In this document: positions 2,130 through 17,786 of the stretch, piece after piece
How the letters are laid out: the number at the start of each line of letters is the position of its first letter
How positions within the stretch are numbered: position 1 is the stretch's first letter
Assembly (NCBI RefSeq): GCF_001536285.1
Contig: NZ_FAOZ01000023.1
Span: 62,001 to 126,000 of the forward strand
Direction of reading: 5' to 3'
Length of the DNA stretch: 64,000 nucleotides
Source of the DNA: Parafrankia irregularis
Lineage (GTDB): Bacteria > Actinomycetota > Actinomycetes > Frankiales > Frankiaceae
The notes under the pieces: model-generated
Told to the model about the DNA's origin: nothing
Database searches by the model: none
The model's input: only the letters and a program-made list of their open reading frames with translations
Translations under genes and position numbers: made by a program

Positions 2130-3349
2130 CCAACCTCCCACCGGCGACAGGCGCCCAGGACGCGCCCACGGTCAGACTATGCGCCGGGCCCGAAACCCGG
2201 TGAACGGCCCACCCTCGTCGCGGGCCGGCGGCCACCCGCCACCAGCTCGGCCGAATGCCGCACCGGGCCCGTCAGACGGCTCCTCGAGCGGGTCGGCGGT
2301 CGTGACGCGGGGTCCGGACGCGCCCGCGCGAGAAGGGCCCGTCAGCCGCGCCGTCAACCGCGCCGTGGACCGGCCCGCCGCACGCCTGAGCCAACCGGGG
2401 GGCGACCGCAGGTGGCGCTCCGAACGGCGACACGCGCGACCGGCCATGGGCGTCGAACTTGACAACCAGCCGAGGAACGCCCCCTCCGGGCCACGGAACA
2501 GCCCGCACCCGGCGGCCGCACCACCCCCGTTCGGAGGGGGCGCGGCCCACCGCCCCGCACCCGGCCCCGACCGGAATGCGCTTGGAACAGGCCGGATTCT
2601 CACCCACCCGCACACCGGCCGGCAGACCGAACCCGTGAACTGAGAATGAATTTAGCACATAACAGCAGCGGCCGACACCGACTTAAAAGCGTCGTCGTTT
2701 CTGGCGAGAAATAGCCCGGTCAGGCCAGCGCGGCCGCCGGGAATGCCAAGCTGTCAACTCCGCGCAGCGGCGCCCCCGTTCAGCCGGGGGCTGTGCATCG
2801 GTTTCCAGCAAAACAGGATCAATCCAGATTCACTACAGAAACACAACAGAAACACTCCGATACCACTTTCGGCTATGGCCCGGAGATAGCCCGCAACGCC
2901 CGCCGCACGACCCGCCTAGGCGGTCAATAGCATGTGCGACGCGCAGATGACCTGCACTGATAGTTCGGGTTCGACCCAGGATCGACACCGGATCAACCCA
3001 GGTAGGACAGGCGCATCGGGGCGACGGCAAGGGGGCGGAGATCGACGCGGTCAGCACGGCCGGAGAGGGGCTCCAGGCCGGTGTCAATAGGCATCGGGAA
3101 CCACATTTCAGCGGCCACTTCACTTCATTTTTCCGCGACGCGGAGAAACATTACGAAACTACCCCGGGCGACCCCTCGAAGGCGACTCACAAGCGCCCCG
3201 GAGGAACCTCGGGAGACATCAGCCAACGAACGGGACAACGCGCGGCGCCACGCAAGATCCGTCGATTCTCAGCCGAATTCCCGACGGAAGTTCCTGACCG
3301 CGGCGGGCCGGCCCTGAGCCACCGACCACCGACGACGAGGACCTGATCG
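2130..3349. other. Long intergenic stretch without a supported gene
   Basis: About 1.2 kb between the divergent GNAT and cvnA genes. Open frames here lack recognisable protein features and have inconsistent codon use. The part after about 2640 is less GC-rich than its surroundings, with AT-rich patches near 2640-2700 and 3100-3165, fitting promoter and leader DNA for cvnA. I see no RNA gene. Confidence 0.5.
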
Positions 3350-5737
3350 ATGTCAGAACACGCAATCGCGCGCCATCAGGTGCGGCGACCACCGACGGTC
3401 CGCGACCTGATCGCACCGCCGATCGCCGCGGTGCTGGTGGTGATGCTCACCGGCCTCGGCATAGCCGCGGTGTCACCCACCGACGCCCGCGGGCCGGTCC
3501 TGTTCTGCGCATCCGTCGCCGCCATAGTCGTCGGGCTGGCGAGCGTCTTCGCGGTCCGCAACCGGCAGATCGCCATGGAGCTGCGCGGCCGGGTCGTCAC
3601 GCTCGAAGCGAAGGTCAAGACCTCCACGGCGCAGACGGAACGGCTGTCCCGGGAGGTGCTCCCCCTCGTCGTCACCCGCCTGCGAGAGGGCGCCACCGCC
3701 CAGGCCGCCCTCGGGGAGGCGCCGCGAGGTACCGACGGCGCGCACCTGCACATTCTGCGCACCGTGGCAGAGGAGGTCAGCCGCGGCGAACGGATGCGCT
3801 CCGCCGCGATGGCCGCCTGCGCGAGCGCCGCCGGCCGCATGCAGGCGTTGAGCACCGCCATGCTCGCCGACCTTCGCACCATGGAGGAACGGCACAGCGA
3901 GGAGGTTCTCGGCGACCTGCTGCGGCTCGACCACCTCACCGCCCAGGCGGGGCGCCTCGCTGACAGCATCGCCGTTCTCACCGGCGGGCGTTCGGGTCGT
4001 CGCTGGACCAAGCCGATCGTCATGGAAAGCCTGCTGCGCGGGGCGATGGGACGGATCAGCGCCTACCAGCGGGTCCGGCTCCACTCGACCAGCACCGTGG
4101 CCGTGGTCGGCTACGCCGCCGAGGGCGTGATGCACACGCTCGCGGAACTCATGGACAACGCCACCAGCTTCTCGCCGCCCTCCGAAGAGGTGCACGTCTA
4201 CGTCGAGGAGGTGCAGGCCGGCGTCGTCATCACCATCGAGGACGGCGGCCTGGTCATGGGGCAGGCAGCCCTCGAACGGGCCGAACGCGCCGTCTCGGCG
4301 GAATCGCTCGACCTGACCAGCCTCTCCGGCACCCGGCTGGGCCTCGCGGTCGTCGGCGTGCTCGCCCGCAAACACGGTCTGACGGTGTCCTTCCGCCCGT
4401 CGTCGCGCGGCGGAACCGGTGCCATCGTGATGGTTCCGCGCCAGCTCATCACCGCGCCGAGATCGGTGGAGCCACCGCCCACGATCAGCGACGCGACGGA
4501 CGCGGCGACCACGGGCCTGCGCACCGCCGTGGCGGCCCGGGCCCCACGGGCCCTGCCGCCCGCGGCCGCCGACGACCGGCACAGCCGAAGCGCGGCCGCG
4601 TCGGACCCCGGCTTCAACCGGCAGCGGCAGGGAGCGGGTGGTGGTGGTGACCTGGCGAACCACCAGCCACGCAGACCGGATCCGTCCGAGTTCGTCACGG
4701 CCCTGGGTGCCCTTCCCACCCGTGAACCCGGCGCCTTCCCGACCCGCGCCGGTACCAGGAACGCTCCGAGCACGGAGCAGACTCACGCCCACCCCCACGT
4801 CGCGCTCGACACCGGGCCGAGCGGCACCGCGGACACCGCAGCCGCCACCGGCATCGATGCCGTCACCGCCCGGATCACCCTGCCCAAGCGAGCCCGCGGC
4901 CAGTCCCTCACCGCCAGCACCCGCGCGGCCGGCCCCGCCGTCTCCCGCCCGCGCTCACACCGGGCCCGTCGCAACTCCATCGCGAACTTCGCCGCGTTCC
5001 GTCGAGCCATGCGCGCCGCCAGCGCGACCAGGTCGACCACAACGCGCCCGGCGGCTCCTGGTCCGACGCCGGCGAGCCCGCAGATGCCGACCCAGGGGAC
5101 GGCGGAGCTGGCAATGCCGGGACTGGGCATGCCTGGACCGGGCATGCCGGGCCCTGCGGCGCTCTTCGGCCCGACAACGGGCACAGCGTCCGCGACGAAC
5201 CCGGCGCCCATCGACGCGGAAACCACCATCTCCGCGGAGCAGTTCGAGATGGCGGCGCTGGCGGAGCTGATCGAGATGGCGGAGCTGGCCGCGGCCCGCA
5301 CCTCGGACGAGGCCCCGGCCATGCCGACGGACACACCTGAGCCGGGCCCGGAGCTGGCCACGACCGTCCAACCGGAGAGCTTCGCCGCCGCGGTCGGCCC
5401 GACCGACACGGCCGACACCGCCGCCGCCGATGTCGCCGATGTCGACGCCGCTGCTGCGACCGCGCAGGCCTCCGAGACCGCGACGACCTCCGCGACCACG
5501 CGGGGCTCCGCTACCGGGGAGCTGCCCGCGGCGGCGACGGACAGCTCCGAGTCGGCCGTGACCGACATCGAGGACAGCCGGCCACCGGCCACGCCCGGCC
5601 CGACCACCGGCCCCAGCCCGGCTGGAGGGGCCGGAGCGGGGGCTTCGGCTGGGGCCGGTTCGAAGCCGCCGCTGGCTCCGACGCGCGTGGGGTCCGCGCC
5701 GACCCGACGCACCCGGCCGACGAGGACGTCCCGGTGA
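3350..5737 (+). CDS. cvnA: Conservon sensor-histidine-kinase-like protein CvnA
   Basis: 795 residues. Two membrane segments lie near residues 20-60 (LIAPPIAAVLVVMLTGLG; VLFCASVAAIVVGLASVFAV), followed by a coiled-coil-like linker and a dimerisation-like helix with LLRLDHLTAQAGR. The GHKL ATPase domain has the N box ELMDNATSFSPP (Asn270), then TIEDGGLVMG and TRLGLAVVGVLARKHG. The last roughly 430 residues are low complexity (Ala/Pro/Thr-rich, with MPGPGMPGP repeats). CvnA proteins form a membrane complex with CvnB, C and D; the family gates a GTPase-like switch. The ATG follows GAGGACC. The C-terminal tail is unusually long. Confidence 0.93.
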   Translation: MSEHAIARHQVRRPPTVRDLIAPPIAAVLVVMLTGLGIAAVSPTDARGPVLFCASVAAIVVGLASVFAVRNRQIAMELRGRVVTLEAKVKTSTAQTERLSREVLPLVVTRLREGATAQAALGEAPRGTDGAHLHILRTVAEEVSRGERMRSAAMAACASAAGRMQALSTAMLADLRTMEERHSEEVLGDLLRLDHLTAQAGRLADSIAVLTGGRSGRRWTKPIVMESLLRGAMGRISAYQRVRLHSTSTVAVVGYAAEGVMHTLAELMDNATSFSPPSEEVHVYVEEVQAGVVITIEDGGLVMGQAALERAERAVSAESLDLTSLSGTRLGLAVVGVLARKHGLTVSFRPSSRGGTGAIVMVPRQLITAPRSVEPPPTISDATDAATTGLRTAVAARAPRALPPAAADDRHSRSAAASDPGFNRQRQGAGGGGDLANHQPRRPDPSEFVTALGALPTREPGAFPTRAGTRNAPSTEQTHAHPHVALDTGPSGTADTAAATGIDAVTARITLPKRARGQSLTASTRAAGPAVSRPRSHRARRNSIANFAAFRRAMRAASATRSTTTRPAAPGPTPASPQMPTQGTAELAMPGLGMPGPGMPGPAALFGPTTGTASATNPAPIDAETTISAEQFEMAALAELIEMAELAAARTSDEAPAMPTDTPEPGPELATTVQPESFAAAVGPTDTADTAAADVADVDAAAATAQASETATTSATTRGSATGELPAAATDSSESAVTDIEDSRPPATPGPTTGPSPAGGAGAGASAGAGSKPPLAPTRVGSAPTRRTRPTRTSR

Positions 5738-5765
5738 GGACGTCCCGATGAGCGGCACCGGCTGC

Positions 5766-5806
5766 CCGCTGGCTGACCGGACCGGACCGGTTCGGTCAGC
5801 CAGCGG
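5766..5806 (+). terminator. Long hairpin in the cvnA-cvnB gap
   Basis: Bases 5766-5779 pair perfectly with 5793-5806. The 13 bases between can add five more pairs, leaving a 3-base loop. GGACGTCCC occurs three times around it (5724, 5738, 5807). The gap between cvnA and cvnB (191 bases) is unusual because cvnB to cvnE overlap. It may be an attenuator or partial terminator that separates cvnA expression from the rest. Confidence 0.5.
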
Positions 5807-5928
5807 GGACGTCCCGATCAGAACCTTCCCGACCTGGCCTTTCCACGACGACCAGACCAGCACTGGACGACCAGATTGGAGGCAGGGGCAACCCGGGCGG
5901 GCCCACCGCACGGCACCCCGCAATCCCG

Positions 5929-6348
5929 ATGAATACCACTGAGAGCGATCTTGACTGGCTGCTGGAGAACCTCCTCGCTCGTACCCCGGGAACGCACCAT
6001 GCCCTGGTGCTGTCCCGGGACGGGCTCAAGCTGTGCCGGTCATCGGGCCTGAGCATCGACCAGGCCGACCAGCTCTCCGCGATCGCCTCGGGCATCCAGA
6101 GCCTCGCGCACGGAGCGTCCATCGAGTTCGGGGACGGCACCGGCGGGGTTCGGCAGTCGATGACCGAGTTCCACGGCGGCCTGCTGTTCATCGTCGACGC
6201 CGGCCAGGGTGCCCACCTGGCGGTGATCGCGACCGACGACGCGGACGCCGGCATCATCGGCCACAACATGAGTGAGCTGGTCGAACAGATCGGCGAATAC
6301 CTGAGCGCCGCACCCCGCGGGCCCGTCCAGCCCGCCGGACAGCCGTGA
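5929..6348 (+). CDS. cvnB: Conservon roadblock/LC7 protein CvnB
   Basis: 139 residues, the full length of a roadblock/LC7 domain. Typical features are LDWLLENLLARTPGTHHALVLS (first helix and strand), DGLKLCRSSGL, ADQLSAIASGIQSLAHG and the long C-terminal helix. Roadblock proteins dimerise and regulate small GTPases; in conservons CvnB contacts CvnA and CvnD. The stop overlaps the next start (GTGA at 6345-6348), so translation of cvnB and cvnC is probably coupled. Confidence 0.93.
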   Translation: MNTTESDLDWLLENLLARTPGTHHALVLSRDGLKLCRSSGLSIDQADQLSAIASGIQSLAHGASIEFGDGTGGVRQSMTEFHGGLLFIVDAGQGAHLAVIATDDADAGIIGHNMSELVEQIGEYLSAAPRGPVQPAGQP

Positions 6349-6704
6349 TCCGACGGCTCGTCGACAGCGAGGACCCGGACCGGCTGTACACCGTCACCGG
6401 TGGTCGCAGCCGGGCCGGACGCACCGCGTTCGACCTCGTCACGCTCGTCACGAGCAGAGCGGACCCCGCCCCTGGGATGCAGTCCGAACACATTCGGATC
6501 CTGCGGGTCTGCCGGGCCCCTACCGCAGTGGTCGAACTCTCGGCGGATCTGAAGCTCCCCGTGAGCATCGTGAAGATCCTGCTCTCCGACCTGTTGGAGA
6601 GGGGCCTGATCGCGGCAAGCCACCCCTCCACCCCGACCGATCCGCTTCAACTTCCCGATCCCGCGTTCCTGAAGCAGGTGCTCGTTGGACTCCAGAAGCT
6701 CTGA
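6345..6704 (+). CDS. cvnC: Conservon DUF742 protein CvnC
   Basis: 119 residues, the standard size of DUF742. It shows the family pattern: RLYTVTGGRSRAG near the start, FDLVTLV, then a winged-helix-like part (EHIRILRVCRAPTAVVELSADLKLPVSIVKILLSDLLERGLI) ending with LKQVLVGLQKL. Its biochemical role is not established; it accompanies CvnB and CvnD in every conservon. It starts with GTG inside the cvnB stop and overlaps cvnD by 20 bases. Confidence 0.93.
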   Translation: MIRRLVDSEDPDRLYTVTGGRSRAGRTAFDLVTLVTSRADPAPGMQSEHIRILRVCRAPTAVVELSADLKLPVSIVKILLSDLLERGLIAASHPSTPTDPLQLPDPAFLKQVLVGLQKL

Positions 6705-7293
6705 GGTCGCCGTCCGGCCGCCGCTGCAGACCACGGCCAAGGACGGCGTCAAGATCGTGATCGTCGGCGGATTCGGCGTCGGCAAGACCACGATGGTCCG
6801 TTCCGTCAGCGAGATCCGCCCACTGAGCACCGAGGAGGTGATGACCGAGGCCGGCGTCGGCATCGACGACCCCGGCGCGGTCACGGACAAGAACACCACC
6901 ACCGTCGCGTTCGACTTCGGACGCATCAGCCTGGACGCGCAGATGGTGCTGTACCTGTTCGGCGCGCCCGGTCAGGAACGGTTCTGGTTCCTGTGGGACC
7001 GCCTGTTCGCCGGCACCATCGGCGCGGTCGTCCTCGTCGACACCCGCCGGGTCTCCGACTCCTGGTATGCGATCGATCGGCTGGAACACCACCGGATGCC
7101 GTTCATCGTCGCGAGGAACAACTTCGGCGAGCCCGAGCACTCCCTCGAGGACCTGCGCGAGGCGCTGTCCCTCTCCCCCGACGTGCCCGTCATCGACTGC
7201 GACGCCCGGCACCGCTCGTCCAGCAAGGACGTGCTGATGACGCTCGTACAGCACCTCTACGAGCAGGCCTCCGCCCGCAAGGAGGCCTCATGA
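6685..7293 (+). CDS. cvnD: Conservon ATP/GTP-binding protein CvnD
   Basis: 202 residues. Walker A is GGFGVGKTT (residues 28-36), the switch region SEIRPLSTEEVMTEAG follows, then TTTVAFDFGRISL and the G3-like FGAPGQERFWF. The usual N/TKxD guanine-specificity motif is not seen in standard form (VARNNF occupies that area), as in many Mgl/Cvn GTPases. A TTG start at 6685 is used because the ORF begins inside cvnC; an internal start would remove residues before the P-loop strand. It ends in an ATGA overlap with the P450 gene. Confidence 0.92.
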   Translation: MDSRSSEVAVRPPLQTTAKDGVKIVIVGGFGVGKTTMVRSVSEIRPLSTEEVMTEAGVGIDDPGAVTDKNTTTVAFDFGRISLDAQMVLYLFGAPGQERFWFLWDRLFAGTIGAVVLVDTRRVSDSWYAIDRLEHHRMPFIVARNNFGEPEHSLEDLREALSLSPDVPVIDCDARHRSSSKDVLMTLVQHLYEQASARKEAS

Positions 7294-8717
7294 CCACGAT
7301 GCTCGGTCCGGGCGCGGGGCCGGCTCCGCGCCCGGGCGTGGGCCGCGGCCGCTCCGACATCGCCCCGGTGCGGCGCCCGCAGGCCCGGGGCCACCGCGAC
7401 CCGCGTCCCAATCCGGCCTCGAACCCGCACCGCACCCCCGCTCCCGCCCCTGCCGCCGCGCCCGGCCCGGTGATCCCGGTGACGTTCGACGGCACCCGGC
7501 ACGCCTGGCTGGTTCTGGGGTACCGCGAGCTGCACTACGTTCTGAGCAGCCCGGAGATCTTCACCAGCGATCCGCGTAACCGGGCCCGCCGGGAGAACAT
7601 CCCTGCGGACTGGGCGCCTCTCCCCGGGCTGGGCCGGCGCCCCTCGCTGCTCCACACCGACAGCGAGGACCATCAGCGCCGCTACCAGGCGGTCAACGAC
7701 GTCCTGGGCGAGGTGGACGTCTTCCTCCTGCGCGCGCGGGCCGAGGCCATCACCGACAGCGTGATCGACGACTTCGCCGGGCTCGGCTCGGCCGATCTGG
7801 TCGCGTCGTTCGCGCACCAGGTGCCCGCCCTGGTCCTGGCCTCGCTGTGCGGACCGGACGACCTCGACGCCACCCAGATCGCCGAGGACCTCGTCGACCT
7901 GGTCGACATCGACGCGGACGCCGCCCGCGGCCATCGCCATCTCGTCGCCCGGCTGCGCGACCTGCTCGCCATCCGACTGGACGAGCCTCCCACCGAGGAC
8001 ATCATCTCCGGCCTGATCGACCATCCGGCCGAGCTGACGGACGACGAGATCGTCGAGGATCTCGCGGTCGCCCTCGGCTTCGGGATGCGCACGGTGGCTG
8101 GTTGGATCGGCAACTCGCTGCGTCTGCTGCTCACCGACGGGTCCTTCGCGCTGGAGCTGTCCGGCGGGCGGCGCAGCGTCATGCAGGCACTCACCCGGGT
8201 CCTGTGGGAGGACACGCCCCTGCAGATCACCGCCGGCCGCTGGGCGACCCGCGACATCCAGCTCGGTGGCCAGCGGATCAGGGCCGGGGAGATGGTCGCG
8301 CTCGGCCTCGCGGCGGCGAACTCCGATCCCCGGGTCCGCCGCGACCACGCCTCGGGCCCGCCGGCCGGGTGCGGCGCCGCGCTCGCCCACCACCACAACC
8401 CGGGCGGCGGCCCGGCCCTGCGGGGCACCGCGCACCACGCCGGAAACGCGACCGGCGCCGACGCCGACGCCGACGCCGACGGCACTGTCACGGCGTCCGG
8501 GCCCAACAGCGCGCACCTGTCCTTCGGGCACGGTGCGCACCGCTGCCCGTTCCCCGCACAGGAGATCGCCGAGGTCATCACACGGACCGCCGTCGAGGTG
8601 CTCCTCGACCGGCTGCCCAACGTGCGGCTCGCCGTACCCGCGGGCGCGCTGGCCTGGCGACGCACCGCGTGGAACAGGGCACTGACCGCCCTGCCGGTCC
8701 GGTTCAGCCCAGTTTGA
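7290..8717 (+). CDS. cvnE: Conservon cytochrome P450 (CvnE, CYP157-like) lacking ExxR
   Basis: 475 residues, starting at the ATG inside the cvnD stop. The haem ligand is Cys419 in FGHGAHRCPF. The K-helix ExxR motif, nearly universal in P450s, reads R303-V-L-W306. Loss of ExxR with tryptophan at the arginine position is known for conservon-linked CYP157 enzymes. The I helix has GFGMRTVAGWIGN rather than the common AGxxT oxygen-activation motif. The first 60 residues are Pro/Ala/Arg-rich. A roughly 45-residue insertion before the haem loop includes ADADADAD. Substrate unknown; a redox or ligand-sensing role linked to the Cvn GTPase switch is an inference. Confidence 0.88.
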   Translation: MTTMLGPGAGPAPRPGVGRGRSDIAPVRRPQARGHRDPRPNPASNPHRTPAPAPAAAPGPVIPVTFDGTRHAWLVLGYRELHYVLSSPEIFTSDPRNRARRENIPADWAPLPGLGRRPSLLHTDSEDHQRRYQAVNDVLGEVDVFLLRARAEAITDSVIDDFAGLGSADLVASFAHQVPALVLASLCGPDDLDATQIAEDLVDLVDIDADAARGHRHLVARLRDLLAIRLDEPPTEDIISGLIDHPAELTDDEIVEDLAVALGFGMRTVAGWIGNSLRLLLTDGSFALELSGGRRSVMQALTRVLWEDTPLQITAGRWATRDIQLGGQRIRAGEMVALGLAAANSDPRVRRDHASGPPAGCGAALAHHHNPGGGPALRGTAHHAGNATGADADADADGTVTASGPNSAHLSFGHGAHRCPFPAQEIAEVITRTAVEVLLDRLPNVRLAVPAGALAWRRTAWNRALTALPVRFSPV

Positions 8718-8775
8718 CGTCCGCGACTGGCCGCGCCGCACGGCATCACGCTGAAACCGAGCCCGGAGACCACCG

Positions 8776-10431
8776 ATGACCGATCCCCACTCACGCCAGC
8801 CCGGCGCCTGCCCGAGCGGCATGCCCCGGCCGCTGAGCGGCGCGCGCCAGTACAGCCCACTGCGCCAGTACGGCACGTCCTGCCCGGCGCCGAGCACCAC
8901 CCGGCGCGGCGAGGCTCCCGGAACCGGCAGGACCCGCGGGTCTGCCGGGCCGGGTTCGTCCAGCTCCCCGGCCGTGCCGGCCGCACCGGCCACACCGGCC
9001 GCGTCCACCGCGTCCGCGATGCCCGCATCGTCCGCTCCGCCGGGAACGGCCGATGCGCCCACCACCGCGCTCGGGTTCACCGGCACGCCCGGCGCCACCG
9101 CGGCCGGCCCACCGGAGCCCCGACGTCCCGGCTCACCGCCGGTGCCGCCCATCGCGCCACCCGGTGAGCGGGACCGCGGCCAGGAACCGGCGCGCCAGCC
9201 CGACGACCGGTCGACGTTCGAGGCCCGCTGGCCCGCGCACCACGGCGCCGCCCGGCTGCCCGCCGAGGGACCCGGCAACCGGCGCGCCGCCTTCTACCAC
9301 CAGATCAGGGACGAGCACGGGCCGGTCGCGCCGGTCCTGCTCGAAGGTGACATCCCGGCCTGGCTCGTCCTCGGCTACCGGGAGGTCGTCTACGTCGCGG
9401 GGACGCCCGCCCTGTTCGGGCGGGATGCCCGGATCTGGAATGCCTGGGATCTGGTCCCGTCGGGCTGGCCCCTGCAGCCGATCGTCGGCCAGCGACCCTC
9501 CCTGCGCAGCCTCGACGGGCCCGCCCACACCCGGCGGCTGGCGGCGATCGGTGACGTGGTCGGCAGGTTCGAGTCGCACGACCTGCGGGCCCGGGTGACC
9601 CGTGGCGCGGACACCCTGATCGACGCGGTGGCGGGCAACGGCCGGGCGGAGCTGATGAGCCAGTACGCCGGCCCGCTGCCCGCGATGGTCAACGCCGAGA
9701 TGTGGGGGCTGCCCGCCGGCGACCTGACCGCCCTGGCCCGGGATCTGACCCTGCTCGTCAGCGGTGGCACCGGAGCCCGCGACGCGCGCCGCCGGGTCCA
9801 CGCGATGCTCGTGCGGGTCGTGCGCCGCCGCCGTGACCAGCCCTGCGACGACGCCGTCTCAGCGCTGATCGCCCACCCGGCGGAGCTCACGGACGAGGAG
9901 ATCGTCGAGGACGTCATGGCGACCCTGACCGTGGCCCAGGCACCGACCGCCGACTGGATCGGGAACACCCTTCGCCTGATGCTCACCGACGACCGGTTCG
10001 CCGTGGATCTCGCGGGCGGCCGGCTCAGCGTCGGCGGTGCCATGGCCGAGGTCCTCTGGGCGGACCCGCCGATCCAGAACCTGGTCGCGCGGTGGGCTCG
10101 CCGTGACCTCCGGCTCGGCGGGCGGTGGATCCGCTCCGGCGATCTCCTCATCTTCGGCCTCTCCGCCGCGAACACCGATCCGCGCGCGCGTCCGCGCGAG
10201 TCCGGCCGGGCGGCCGGCAACAACGCCCACCTGGCATTCGGCCACGGCGAGCACCGCTGTCCCTTCCCCGCGCAGATGGCCGCCGAGACGATCGCGACCA
10301 CGGCCGTCGAGGTCCTGCTCGATCGCCTCCCCGACCTGGAGCTCGCGGTGGAGCCCACGGCGCTGCTGTGGCGCCCCTCGGTCTGGGTGCGTGGCCTCGC
10401 CACCCTGCCGGTCCGGTTCACGTCGCCTTGA
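8776..10431 (+). CDS. Second conservon-linked cytochrome P450 with Arg-to-Trp in ExxR
   Basis: 551 residues, 58 bases after the first P450. The first 170 or so residues are low complexity (Pro/Ala/Thr), then a P450 domain begins around HHGAARLPAEG. Haem ligand Cys495 is in FGHGEHRCPF. The K helix reads E425-V-L-W428, so glutamate is kept but arginine is tryptophan. The I helix has TVAQAPTADWIGNTLRLML, matching the first P450 (WIGNxLRLxL), so the two are paralogues. GGAG precedes the ATG. It is probably transcribed with cvnA-E, ending at the 10469-10510 hairpin. Confidence 0.86.
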   Translation: MTDPHSRQPGACPSGMPRPLSGARQYSPLRQYGTSCPAPSTTRRGEAPGTGRTRGSAGPGSSSSPAVPAAPATPAASTASAMPASSAPPGTADAPTTALGFTGTPGATAAGPPEPRRPGSPPVPPIAPPGERDRGQEPARQPDDRSTFEARWPAHHGAARLPAEGPGNRRAAFYHQIRDEHGPVAPVLLEGDIPAWLVLGYREVVYVAGTPALFGRDARIWNAWDLVPSGWPLQPIVGQRPSLRSLDGPAHTRRLAAIGDVVGRFESHDLRARVTRGADTLIDAVAGNGRAELMSQYAGPLPAMVNAEMWGLPAGDLTALARDLTLLVSGGTGARDARRRVHAMLVRVVRRRRDQPCDDAVSALIAHPAELTDEEIVEDVMATLTVAQAPTADWIGNTLRLMLTDDRFAVDLAGGRLSVGGAMAEVLWADPPIQNLVARWARRDLRLGGRWIRSGDLLIFGLSAANTDPRARPRESGRAAGNNAHLAFGHGEHRCPFPAQMAAETIATTAVEVLLDRLPDLELAVEPTALLWRPSVWVRGLATLPVRFTSP

Positions 10432-10468: not shown

Positions 10469-10510
10469 AAACCTCAGGGCCCGTGGGGAAACCCACGGGC
10501 CCTGAGGTTT
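10469..10510. terminator. Perfect 19-bp hairpin with GAAA loop
   Basis: Bases 10469-10487 pair without mismatch with 10492-10510 around a GAAA tetraloop. A short T run flanks the + side and an A run the other, so it can work both ways between the convergent P450 and rpsA genes. Confidence 0.9.
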
Positions 10511-12339: not shown

Positions 12340-14076
12340 TCACCTGGTCTCGTCCTCGAGTTGACTGTGAAAGTGTCCACGTCGACCCTCGGGCGTTCCG
12401 CCCGGGGACGGCTGGTGCGACCGCGCGTCACGCCGATCCCGGCGGCTGAATCCCCGGTGGGCGGCCCGGGGAGCAGGTGCGCCCGGGATGTCCTCGGGAG
12501 GCACCCGGGTGGCGGGCACGTCGCCGGATCGAGCCTGTCCCGTCCCGCCGATCCGCAGCGGCATCGTCCGTGCCGGGTCACCGTCCACAGCACCGGCGGC
12601 GACGCCGCCCACACCGAGGTGTCCGCCATCCGACACCGCGACGCCGCGCGTCAGGCCGGTCGCCAATGGCGCCGTGGTGCCTGGCCCGGCTGCCTGGCCG
12701 ACCCGCCCGGCCGGCCTCGAACGGGCCCGCAGCCGGCCCACCAGCCACCGCCCCAGCGCGATGAACGGGCGCTCGACCAGCAGGTAGGTCACCGCGGAGA
12801 CGGCGCAGGTCAACCCCAGGACCATGAGGAAGAACGGCCAGAAGGGGCGCGCGCCGTCGGCCGGGCTGATGCGCTCGACGACGACGTCGATGACGGTGGT
12901 GTGCCACAGGTAGATGCCGTACGAGATCATCCCGAGCCAGGCCATCGGGCGGCAGGCGAGGAACCTGCGCACCAGGCCGCGGTCGCTCGGCCCGAACACC
13001 GCGGGCATGAGCAGGAAGAAGCCGGTCAGGCCGTAGAAGAGGTGGCGCCCCATGTCCTGGCCGCGGTCCGGGATGAACAGCGGGCTGCGGGGCAGCCCGA
13101 GCTGCGTGCTCGAGAACCAGTAGAAGAACGCGGCGGCCAGCACGCAGGCGGCCCCGAACCAACGCCACTGCGCCCAGCGCGGCGAGCGCCCGTTCTGGGT
13201 GTACCAGGCGGACAGGACCGCGAGCAGCATGCCCATGGCGAACAGGTCCCACCAGACCGGCAGCCACACCGTCCAGCCGTCCGCCCACCAGATGTCGGAC
13301 CCGATCAGCTTGTAGTGCAGCACCCGGCTGATGACGAAAATCACCGCGAGCGCGGCGAGCTCGACCTTCAGCTGGGCGCGGGGGGAGCGCCGCCGGCGGA
13401 CGAGCAGCCAGGCGTAGAGCGGGATGGAGAGGTAGAACGCGAACTCGATGTTGAGGGTCCAGGCCTGGGTCAGGCCCTGGATCGCGGTCTCCTTGCGGTA
13501 GCCCTGCGCGAACAGGGCGGTCTGCACCAGCCCCTTGAAACCGTGGACGCCCATCCGCTCGTCCGGCACGACGTTCAGCGCGACCGCGAGCGCCAGCCAG
13601 TAGAGCGGGATGATCCGCAGCAGGCGACGGACGTAGAAGGCCGGGGCGTCGGGAGCCCGGCGGCCACTGAGGTGCGCGGCGGCGAACGGCCGGTAGAGCA
13701 GGAAACCCGAGATCAGGAAGAAGATCTCCACGCCGATCTCGCCCCGGGCCACGTAGGTCCCGATCGCGTTGTCGCCCGTGGTCAGCCCGCTGTAGAAGGC
13801 CACGTGGACGACCAGCACCAGCAGCGCGGCGATCCCACGCAGCCCGTCGAAGCCGGGGAACACCACCGGCGGGCCTGACCGGGCCTCCGACCGCCCCGTC
13901 ACCTCCGCCGATCCGGATGATCCGGATGTTTCAGTCGGTTCGGCGCCAGCCGGCCCACGCCGGGACTCCACGGCGGGCCCCGCACCATCGGTGACAGCAC
14001 CGGCACCAGCGCCAGCACCAGCGAAGGCCACGCTTTTCGTGGCAACGCCGAGCTTGCCTCGGAAGCCGGCGGTCAT
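12340..14076 (-). CDS. Acyltransferase-3 family membrane protein (OafA-like)
   Basis: 578 residues. After a Ser/Gly/Ala-rich stretch of about 75 residues, the acyltransferase-3 domain begins with FPGFDGLRGIAALLVLVVHVAFYSG and GEIGVEIFFLISGFLLYRPF, the family signature with the conserved histidine and R/K-R-x-x-R-I-x-P-like RRLLRIIPLYW. About ten membrane helices follow, ending near RPFIALGRWLVG. The last 130 residues are a basic, low-complexity cytoplasmic tail. Such proteins move acyl groups (often acetyl) onto surface polysaccharides or lipids. It faces away from the glycan genes but probably belongs to the same function. Confidence 0.9.
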   Translation of the reverse strand: MTAGFRGKLGVATKSVAFAGAGAGAGAVTDGAGPAVESRRGPAGAEPTETSGSSGSAEVTGRSEARSGPPVVFPGFDGLRGIAALLVLVVHVAFYSGLTTGDNAIGTYVARGEIGVEIFFLISGFLLYRPFAAAHLSGRRAPDAPAFYVRRLLRIIPLYWLALAVALNVVPDERMGVHGFKGLVQTALFAQGYRKETAIQGLTQAWTLNIEFAFYLSIPLYAWLLVRRRRSPRAQLKVELAALAVIFVISRVLHYKLIGSDIWWADGWTVWLPVWWDLFAMGMLLAVLSAWYTQNGRSPRWAQWRWFGAACVLAAAFFYWFSSTQLGLPRSPLFIPDRGQDMGRHLFYGLTGFFLLMPAVFGPSDRGLVRRFLACRPMAWLGMISYGIYLWHTTVIDVVVERISPADGARPFWPFFLMVLGLTCAVSAVTYLLVERPFIALGRWLVGRLRARSRPAGRVGQAAGPGTTAPLATGLTRGVAVSDGGHLGVGGVAAGAVDGDPARTMPLRIGGTGQARSGDVPATRVPPEDIPGAPAPRAAHRGFSRRDRRDARSHQPSPGGTPEGRRGHFHSQLEDETR

Positions 14077-15359: not shown

Positions 15360-17786
15360 GTGGGCTCCGACCAGCTGGCCACCGGCCTTTCACCCGACCA
15401 GAACCGCCTCGACCGCAGCCGCCTCGACGCCGCGTACCAGCGCGACGCCGTCCCCGACCCTGATGGTCGGCTGCGCACGGCGACCGGCTACCGGGGCGAG
15501 GACACCGAGCGGATCGAGCGCACCTCCGCCCGGACACGGATACCGGGACCCCCCCGGCCATCGGCACGCACCCGGCCACCGACGCAGCCGGGCCCGCTGG
15601 AGACCGGCCCGATGGAGACCGGCCCGGCGCGTCCCAGCCTGCGCAGGAGCGGCCCGCGGAAGGCCGCTCCGACGGACTCCGGCCCGCGGGAGACCGGCGT
15701 GCCGCGGCCCAGCAGCTCTCCAGAGACCGGCCCGACCGACACCGGCCCGATGGAGACGGGCCCGCTCACGGCTCCGGTCCTCGCGCCGCTCGGCCACTCC
15801 CCCGCGCTGGACGGCCTGCGGGCACTGGCGGTCATGAGCGTCATGGCCTACCACGCCGGTCTGAGCTGGATGCCGGGCGGACTGCTCGGCGTCGACGCCT
15901 TCTTCGTGCTCTCCGGATTCCTGATCACCGGCCTGCTTGTCACCGAGTACCGCGCGACCAGGCGCATCGACCTCAGGTCGTTCTGGATCCGGCGCACCCG
16001 CCGGCTGATGCCGGCGCTGCTGACCATGATGCTCGGGGTGGCGGCCTATGCCCGCTGGGTAGCGGCTCCCAGCGAGGTCGCGACGTTGCGCATGGACGCG
16101 CTGGCCACCCTCGGCTACGTCGCCAACTGGCGCTTCGCGCTGTCGGACCAGAGCTACTTCGATCATCTCTCCACCCCGTCGCCGCTGCTGCACACCTGGT
16201 CGCTGGCGGTGGAGGAGCAGTTCTACGTGCTGTGGCCGCTGTGCGTCTACCTGCTGATGTGGCAGACCGGACGGACGGTGGCCCGCTGGCGCAACCAGCG
16301 CCGCCGGGCCCAGACCCTGATCCTCACCGTGGCGGTTCTCGGGGCGGAGGCCTCGGCGCTGCTCGGGCTGTTGCTGGTCCTGCTCGACAGCGACGAGTCC
16401 CGGATCTACTACGGCACGGACACCCGTGCCCAGGCACTGCTCGCCGGCGCGGCCCTCGCCGTCTGGCGGATCCAGCGGCGGACTCCGCTCACCGCACGGA
16501 CGAAGAAGGGCCTGGCGGTCGTCGGGTGCCTGGCGGGCCTGGCGATGCTCACGATCTGGGCGACCGTCGACGGGGAGAGCCGGATGCTGTATACCGGCGG
16601 CTTCCTGGGCGTGGCAGTCGTCGTGATGCTGCTGATCGCCTCGATCATCGAGGTGCCGACCGGGCCGGCCGCGAAAGTGCTCTCCTGCGCCCCGTTGCCT
16701 GCCATCGGTCGGGTCTCCTACGGGCTTTACCTGTGGCACTGGCCAGTCTTTCTGACTGTCACCGCCAGCCGCACCGGGCTGAGCGGCCCGGCGCTGCTCG
16801 CGGCCCGGGTCGCCGTCACGGCGGCGATCACCATCGCCTCGTTCCACCTGGTCGAGAACCCGATCCGGCGCGGGAAGATCCGCTTCCCCCGGCCGCGGCT
16901 CACTGTTCCCGCCTCGATCGGCGCCGTCGTCGCCGTCGTCATGGTGGCGACGATCGCGGATCCTGCCGCCGGACGTGGCGCGGCCGATCTGGAACGCCTG
17001 GCACAGCAGGCCGCGTCCGCGGCGCCACCGACGGCGCGCGCCGAGCCCGCCTCCGGTGGCCGGGCCCTGCGCGCGATCATGGCCGGCGACTCGCTCGCGC
17101 TCACGCTGGGTTTCAGCCAGTTCACCGTCACCGCGGCGGACCAGGGGATGGAGGTCCGCGACGCCTCCGAGCTCGGCTGCGGCGTCTCCCGGGCACAGCC
17201 GAGGTACCTCAAGGGCGAGCGGGACTATCCGCAGGCGAGCTGCGTCAACTGGCCCAACCGGTTGCGGCAGAAGGTCGACGAGGTCCACCCCGACGTCGCG
17301 CTGCTGCTGGTCGGCCGCTGGGAGGTCACCGACCAGGTGTACAACGGTCGCCGGACGCACATCGGCGATCCCGCCTTCGACGCCTACCTGGGGCGGGAGC
17401 TCGATCTGGCGATCACCACGCTCTCGGCCGGCGGGGCGAAGGTGGTCCTTCTCACCACCCCCATGTTCAGGAAGGACGAGGCGGCTGACGGCAGTATCTA
17501 CCCGGAGACCAGGCCGGACCGGGTGATCGCGTTCAACGCCCTGCTACGCCAGGCAGCCGCCCGGCACTCCGCGGTGACAACTGTGATCGATCTCGCGACG
17601 ATCCTCAGCCCGGACAACCAGTACCGCGACGAGATCGACGGCGTACAGGTACGCGACGACGACGGCGTGCACATCAGCAACGGTGGTGGCGCACGGGCAG
17701 GTGATGTCATTGTGCCTCAGCTTGTACGGATGCTCCGCCCGGCCACAACTGGCGGCGCGGGCACGCCGAGCCCGGTACCCGAGTGA
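15360..17786 (+). CDS. Acyltransferase-3 with C-terminal SGNH domain
   Basis: 808 residues from a GTG at 15360; the true start is uncertain because the first 140 residues are low complexity with TGPMETGP-type repeats. The acyltransferase-3 membrane domain starts at [22 protein letters not shown] and includes [32 protein letters not shown] and [16 protein letters not shown]. After about ten helices there is an exported SGNH-hydrolase-like domain: [12 protein letters not shown] (block I Ser), LLLVGRWEV and DDGVHIS (Asp-x-x-His). This architecture is typical of O-acetylation of exopolysaccharide or peptidoglycan. It precedes the gmd-like gene by 64 bases. Confidence 0.92.

Follow-up and report, generated by a model that had tools for sequence, protein, structure and literature searches.

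The two cytochrome P450 genes that close a conservon of Parafrankia irregularis encode proteins with Trp in place of the Arg of the K-helix ExxR motif and an intact haem cysteine loop, and these proteins are probably sensors and not oxidising enzymes. P450-1 (475 amino acids) and P450-2 (551 amino acids) lie within a 64,000-nucleotide stretch of contig NZ_FAOZ01000023.1, the window (Table 1). A Trp at this position was already known in the family; what is new is the tandem pair of Trp-bearing proteins, the dismantling of the complete K-helix/meander lock and an E-Q-R series among P450-1 orthologues. ExxR serves as a recognition mark of P450s, which lends weight to a family without it, and CvnE, the class to which we assign the pair, is understood less well than any other input of a signalling system that occurs across the actinomycetes.

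Read in the ExxR register, the K helix of P450-1 (SGGRRSVMQALTR303VLW306EDTP) gives RVLW and that of P450-2 (AGGRLSVGGAMAE425VLW428ADPP) gives EVLW, with residue numbers exactly those of an earlier note on this DNA, and P450-1 has indeed lost the Glu as well, carrying R303 in its place. Two positions anchor the register, Leu305/427 and Pro310/432 (the latter four residues past the Trp), both conserved across W-type and ExxR groups. That note had allowed that an alignment might place a true ExxR elsewhere; a whole-protein scan found no ExxR anywhere in P450-1, and the only such strings in P450-2 lie outside the K helix, at 114, 131 and 137 (low-complexity N-terminus) and 475 (meander), so that neither protein has one in register. 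The haem cysteine loop (FGHGxHRCPF) is present in both as described, in the form FGHG(A/E)HRCPF with thiolate Cys419 and Cys495, though the CxG glycine is gone. The two proteins share 43% identity across 415 columns. Sequencing error and chance were excluded as sources of the Trp: orthologous genomes agree codon by codon, with the same codons in Parafrankia sp. EUN1f and the same Trp pair in four further Parafrankia genomes. Ahead of its P450 domain, P450-2 carries about 150 Pro/Ala/Gly-rich low-complexity residues (8776–9230).

Table 1 Features of the conservon and its two P450 genes (window coordinates)
Feature	Position	Strand	Basis
cvnA, histidine-kinase-like, two TM helices, few-residue loop, no sensory domain	3350..5737	+	Pfam HATPase_c 3e-10 only; hydropathy
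cvnB, roadblock/LC7 protein	5929..6348	+	Pfam PF03259 2.6e-23
cvnC, DUF742 protein	6345..6704	+	Pfam PF05331 3.9e-35
cvnD, small GTPase, stop overlaps P450-1 start (ATGA)	6685..7293	+	Pfam PF03029 5.5e-29
P450-1, CvnE-type, RVLW K helix, without helix A	7290..8717	+	Sequence, homology, structure model
P450-1 K-helix codons CGG GTC CTG TGG (R303-V-L-W306) at ExxR position	8196..8207	+	Sequence
P450-1 meander insert, low-complexity His/Gly/Ala-rich, residues 357-405, predicted disordered	8358..8504	+	pLDDT below 50
P450-1 Cys loop FGHGAHRCPF, thiolate Cys419	8523..8552	+	Sequence; Cys in 52/52 W-type proteins
P450-2, CvnE-type, EVLW K helix, long Pro/Ala-rich N-terminus	8776..10431	+	Sequence, homology, structure model
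P450-2 K-helix codons GAG GTC CTC TGG (E425-V-L-W428)	10048..10059	+	Sequence
P450-2 Cys loop FGHGEHRCPF, thiolate Cys495	10237..10266	+	Sequence
Perfect 18-bp inverted repeat, 4-base loop, between operon and convergent rpsA	10470..10509	+	Sequence

Similarity and predicted fold place both proteins in the P450 superfamily. Searches of PDB P450s with phmmer gave E 1e-33 and 3e-27 for the two proteins, and Pfam PF00067 (p450) listed neither, even at E 10. Structure models, built from alignments with plasmid-derived rows left out, reached pLDDT 89 and pTM 0.90 for P450-2 and pLDDT 78 and pTM 0.77 for P450-1, whose model has a confident core, lacks helix A and shows residues 357–405 as disordered. 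The foremost PDB matches of the models were CYP107/CYP154 P450s (target-normalised TM about 0.71–0.86). The nearest solved structures and sequences include CYP154 enzymes (such as CYP154C1, 1gwi), which are ordinary ExxR proteins with AGHETT and a CPG-form Cys motif, at about 25–27% identity to the window proteins. P450-1 and P450-2 thus have the P450 fold and a Cys thiolate in the haem loop, without the K-helix ExxR, and presumably bind haem. The Pfam p450 profile recognises 18 of the 41 members in one alignment of conservon P450s, demonstrating that profile-based counts miss many of them. Surveys that demand both signature motifs class one-motif proteins as pseudo-P450s (PMC7369989), and CYP157 is still classed as a P450 despite its ExxR exception (PMC3599690).

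The proposed conservon linkage is borne out by a complete cvnA–D set directly upstream (3350–7293), of which the two P450 genes are the last members; P450-1 overlaps cvnD by 4 bp and P450-2 begins 58 bp further on. HATPase_c is the sole Pfam match of CvnA, and no NIT domain was found in that search. A P450 gene straight after cvnABCD and a CvnA with no extracytoplasmic sensory domain are the marks of CvnE accessory proteins (PMC13343842), and both are present here. The other sampled CvnE operons contain one CvnE, or a CvnE and an ordinary ExxR P450; this one contains two CvnE. Among the closest described relatives are the conservon-linked CYP157 proteins of Streptomyces, with EVLW in CYP157A and EQSLW/EQILW in CYP157C (PMC3599690), which share the Trp at the Arg position, the retained Cys and the place beside a conservon; P450-2 is 49–52% identical to a Streptomyces EVLW CvnE. 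Aligned in register, EQSLW places Gln in the Glu column (L120, L156), just as QVLW does in P. colletiae P450-1. By contrast, the W-type copy is doubled in tandem in Parafrankia, and P450-1 of the window combines Arg in the Glu column with a missing helix A and a disordered insert in the meander. The inverted repeat beyond P450-2 is likely, from its sequence, to be a terminator shared by the operon and rpsA. Two acyltransferase-3 proteins are encoded near the conservon (15360–17786 and 12340–14076), one of them fused to an SGNH domain.

Loss of the ExxR Arg is the rule for P450s encoded next to cvnD. We sampled conservons through DUF742 in relatives, class and family, added plasmid-borne conservons, and aligned 107 P450s, 54 adjoining cvnD and 53 others. 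The ExxR Arg is present in 0/54 cvnD-adjacent proteins versus 40/53 others (Fisher p 2e-18, with rows that are related and not independent). Trp fills the Arg column in 47 of the 54 (27 EW, 9 QW, 6 DW, 3 RW, 1 LW and 1 AW), and the remaining seven have Phe, Val or Tyr. The shared Trp, which the earlier note had found notable for these two paralogues, is therefore the norm, and a special tie between P450-1 and P450-2 based on it was rejected because the Trp is clade-wide. Likewise, CYP157C1, cited there as a conservon-linked exception, is rightly related but is not an isolated case, the exception being family-wide (PMC3599690). On the tree, a branch with SH-aLRT 97 separates 64 non-Arg P450s from 10 ExxR second P450s, so that Arg need have been lost only once; in total the Arg column requires five changes, and the Glu column at least eight E/not-E changes. 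This pattern supports an order in which Arg would have been lost first, once for the whole CvnE clade, and Glu later. An Actinacidiphila plasmid (L031) carries very divergent relatives at 2943–4137 and 8480–9620 with RGLW and QVLQ at the ExxR position; no cvnD was detected upstream of them on the same strand.

Sequence comparison indicates that the losses exceed those first described: the E-R-R triad also lacks its third residue, an Arg, and the CxG Gly is usually gone, as, mostly, is the I-helix acid/Thr pair. EXXR has been described as important in stabilising the meander loop (PMC3990721). Among proteins under 90% identity, we compared 52 W-type with 35 ExxR sequences, in which the Arg position holds Trp in 48/52 versus Arg in 35/35. 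The meander Arg that completes the triad is present in 35/35 ExxR proteins and is a gap in 49/52 W-type proteins; the meander Phe (33/35) is lost in the W-type; and the CxG Gly (35/35) becomes Ala in 44/52, with Gly in 6/52. The I-helix Glu and Thr, each present in 34/35 ExxR proteins, remain in 18/52 and 11/52 W-type proteins, respectively. Retained in the W-type are the Cys (52/52), the loop His (48/52), the C-helix His (47/52) and, in 36/52, an Arg in the strand past helix K. The K-helix/meander lock and, in most members, the O2-activation pair are thus dismantled around a preserved thiolate haem site.

Two readings of these proteins as something other than haem sensors bear on this pattern. 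The loss of ExxR, the triad and the CxG Gly would suit proteins that keep the P450 fold to act as partners and have dispensed with haem, as in the P450-derived glycosyltransferase activators, whose NCBIfam model (TIGR04515) is the second-best family match for both proteins, although at 58.6 and 72 bits against a cut-off of 343. That the proximal-side elements are the best-conserved part of P450-1 also counts in its favour. The invariant Cys and nearly invariant Cys-loop His speak against this reading, which we consider unlikely; DesVIII/EryCII-type activators are not known to have this Cys. Active monooxygenases that make or remove a signal molecule, with Trp packing in place of the ExxR lock, are less probable still. 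The models are good P450 folds, ETT survives in helix I of some W-type relatives, and 8 of 64 W-type proteins retain both the acid and the Thr and could still activate O2, but the pair is broken in both window proteins (G-M-R-T-V in P450-1 and A-Q-A-P-T in P450-2), with the acid replaced by Arg267 and Ala389 and the Thr of P450-2 by Pro390. Elsewhere an ordinary ExxR P450 often stands beside CvnE, as if catalysis were left to that enzyme.

Orthologues of P450-1 capture the loss of Glu in steps. At the Glu position, P. colletiae and two more genomes have the codon CAG (Q), and the window, EUN1f and one other genome have CGG (R); all P450-2 orthologues have GAG (E). The R group nests inside the Q group with modest support (89/75), supporting a series among P450-1 orthologues that would run GAG>CAG>CGG (E>Q>R). 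The stepwise loss suggested earlier thus holds for Arg before Glu and for this codon series, but the pair itself is not a series. The two Q orthologues that branch off first (L049, L050) have helix A, which the other four P450-1 proteins lack, and the large meander insert occurs only in R orthologues and is absent in P. colletiae. The insert of P450-1 (8358–8504) has His clusters HHH and HH, with HHHDHH in EUN1f and none in the L066 insert; such clusters could bind metal or haem. These orthologues, with Q or R for Glu, helix A kept or lost and the insert absent or present, form a natural set in which one can ask which parts of the fold hold a thiolate haem.

The same orthologues bear on whether P450-1 is a decaying copy heading towards a pseudogene, leaving P450-2 alone to work. 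Its loss of Glu, helix A and an ordered meander fits such decay, as does its median dN/dS of 0.45, about 2.5 times the 0.18 of P450-2 (cvnA–D, 0.05–0.16). Yet its frame is open in all six Parafrankia genomes and, with both ratios below 1, neither gene looks like a pseudogene. Identity among P450-1 orthologues is 91% in the J-K and Cys loop+L segments, conserved as in P450-2, 57% in E-H and 17% in helix A and the meander. We regard decay as very unlikely: to judge from these segments, P450-1 looks like a protein with eroded distal and peripheral parts and a frozen proximal face. It is on this face (C, J′, K, L and the Cys loop) that ordinary P450s receive their redox partner.

The reading we favour, with a little better than even confidence, takes the two as CvnE-type (CYP157-like) P450s that are unlikely to be catalytic and that dock on a sensorless CvnA as its inputs for haem, a ligand or redox state. 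P450-1 and P450-2 would be accessory subunits of the actinobacterial G-protein system that keep a Cys-ligated haem; from the cytoplasm they would sense haem, a ligand or redox state, dock on the histidine kinase CvnA, which has no sensor domain of its own, and, by way of this kinase, control the state of the CvnB/C/D GTPase switch. We infer the lack of catalysis, the docking and the signalling from the features above and from known systems. The cvnE and cvnF genes overwhelmingly accompany a CvnA without a sensory domain, CvnE11 has been modelled on the HATPase domains of CvnA11, and the analogous accessory protein CvnF8 stimulates the ATPase activity and autophosphorylation of CvnA8 (PMC13343842). 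The sensor role raised in the earlier note fits this co-occurrence, this CvnA being likewise sensorless. Counting against it, none of the CvnE experiments located demonstrates haem-dependent signalling, and the higher dN/dS of P450-1 could reflect decay. A bolder version, tentative and on balance doubtful, is that the P450 fold was converted once, in the CvnE ancestor, into a signalling subunit with the lock and O2-activation pair dismantled and the thiolate haem kept, and that the Parafrankia pair works as a haem sensor of two subunits, the first of which continues to shed Glu, helix A and meander around a proximal face frozen for kinase docking.

Two W-type proteins in tandem are an unusual trait of Parafrankia and one related genus (g6). 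Of 21 closely spaced tandem pairs, 17 have an ordinary ExxR enzyme as their second P450 and the other four belong to Parafrankia and g6; the pairs of the window, EUN1f, P. colletiae and L066, which are W-W too, are not among the 21, their domain gap being longer. All six Parafrankia genomes carry the tandem W-type pair, and P450-2 has matches of 96% in EUN1f and 72% in P. colletiae. Constraining P450-1 and P450-2 as sisters gave an AU p of 0.18, and other placements were likewise not rejected. The two g6 copies cluster together (98/99), which disfavours one duplication common to both genera and makes a separate duplication in g6 look probable. Glu has been lost from some cvnD-adjacent copies in both genera, replaced by Q or R in Parafrankia and by Q or A in g6, and distal copies keep it; g6 genome L181 has Glu in both copies. 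The source genome has a second cvnE-bearing conservon (contig C1:5660–8060; L005, L006), counted among the 17, in which an EVLF protein is followed by an ordinary ExxR P450 (EVLR); another related genus, g5, has this pair too, in three genomes.
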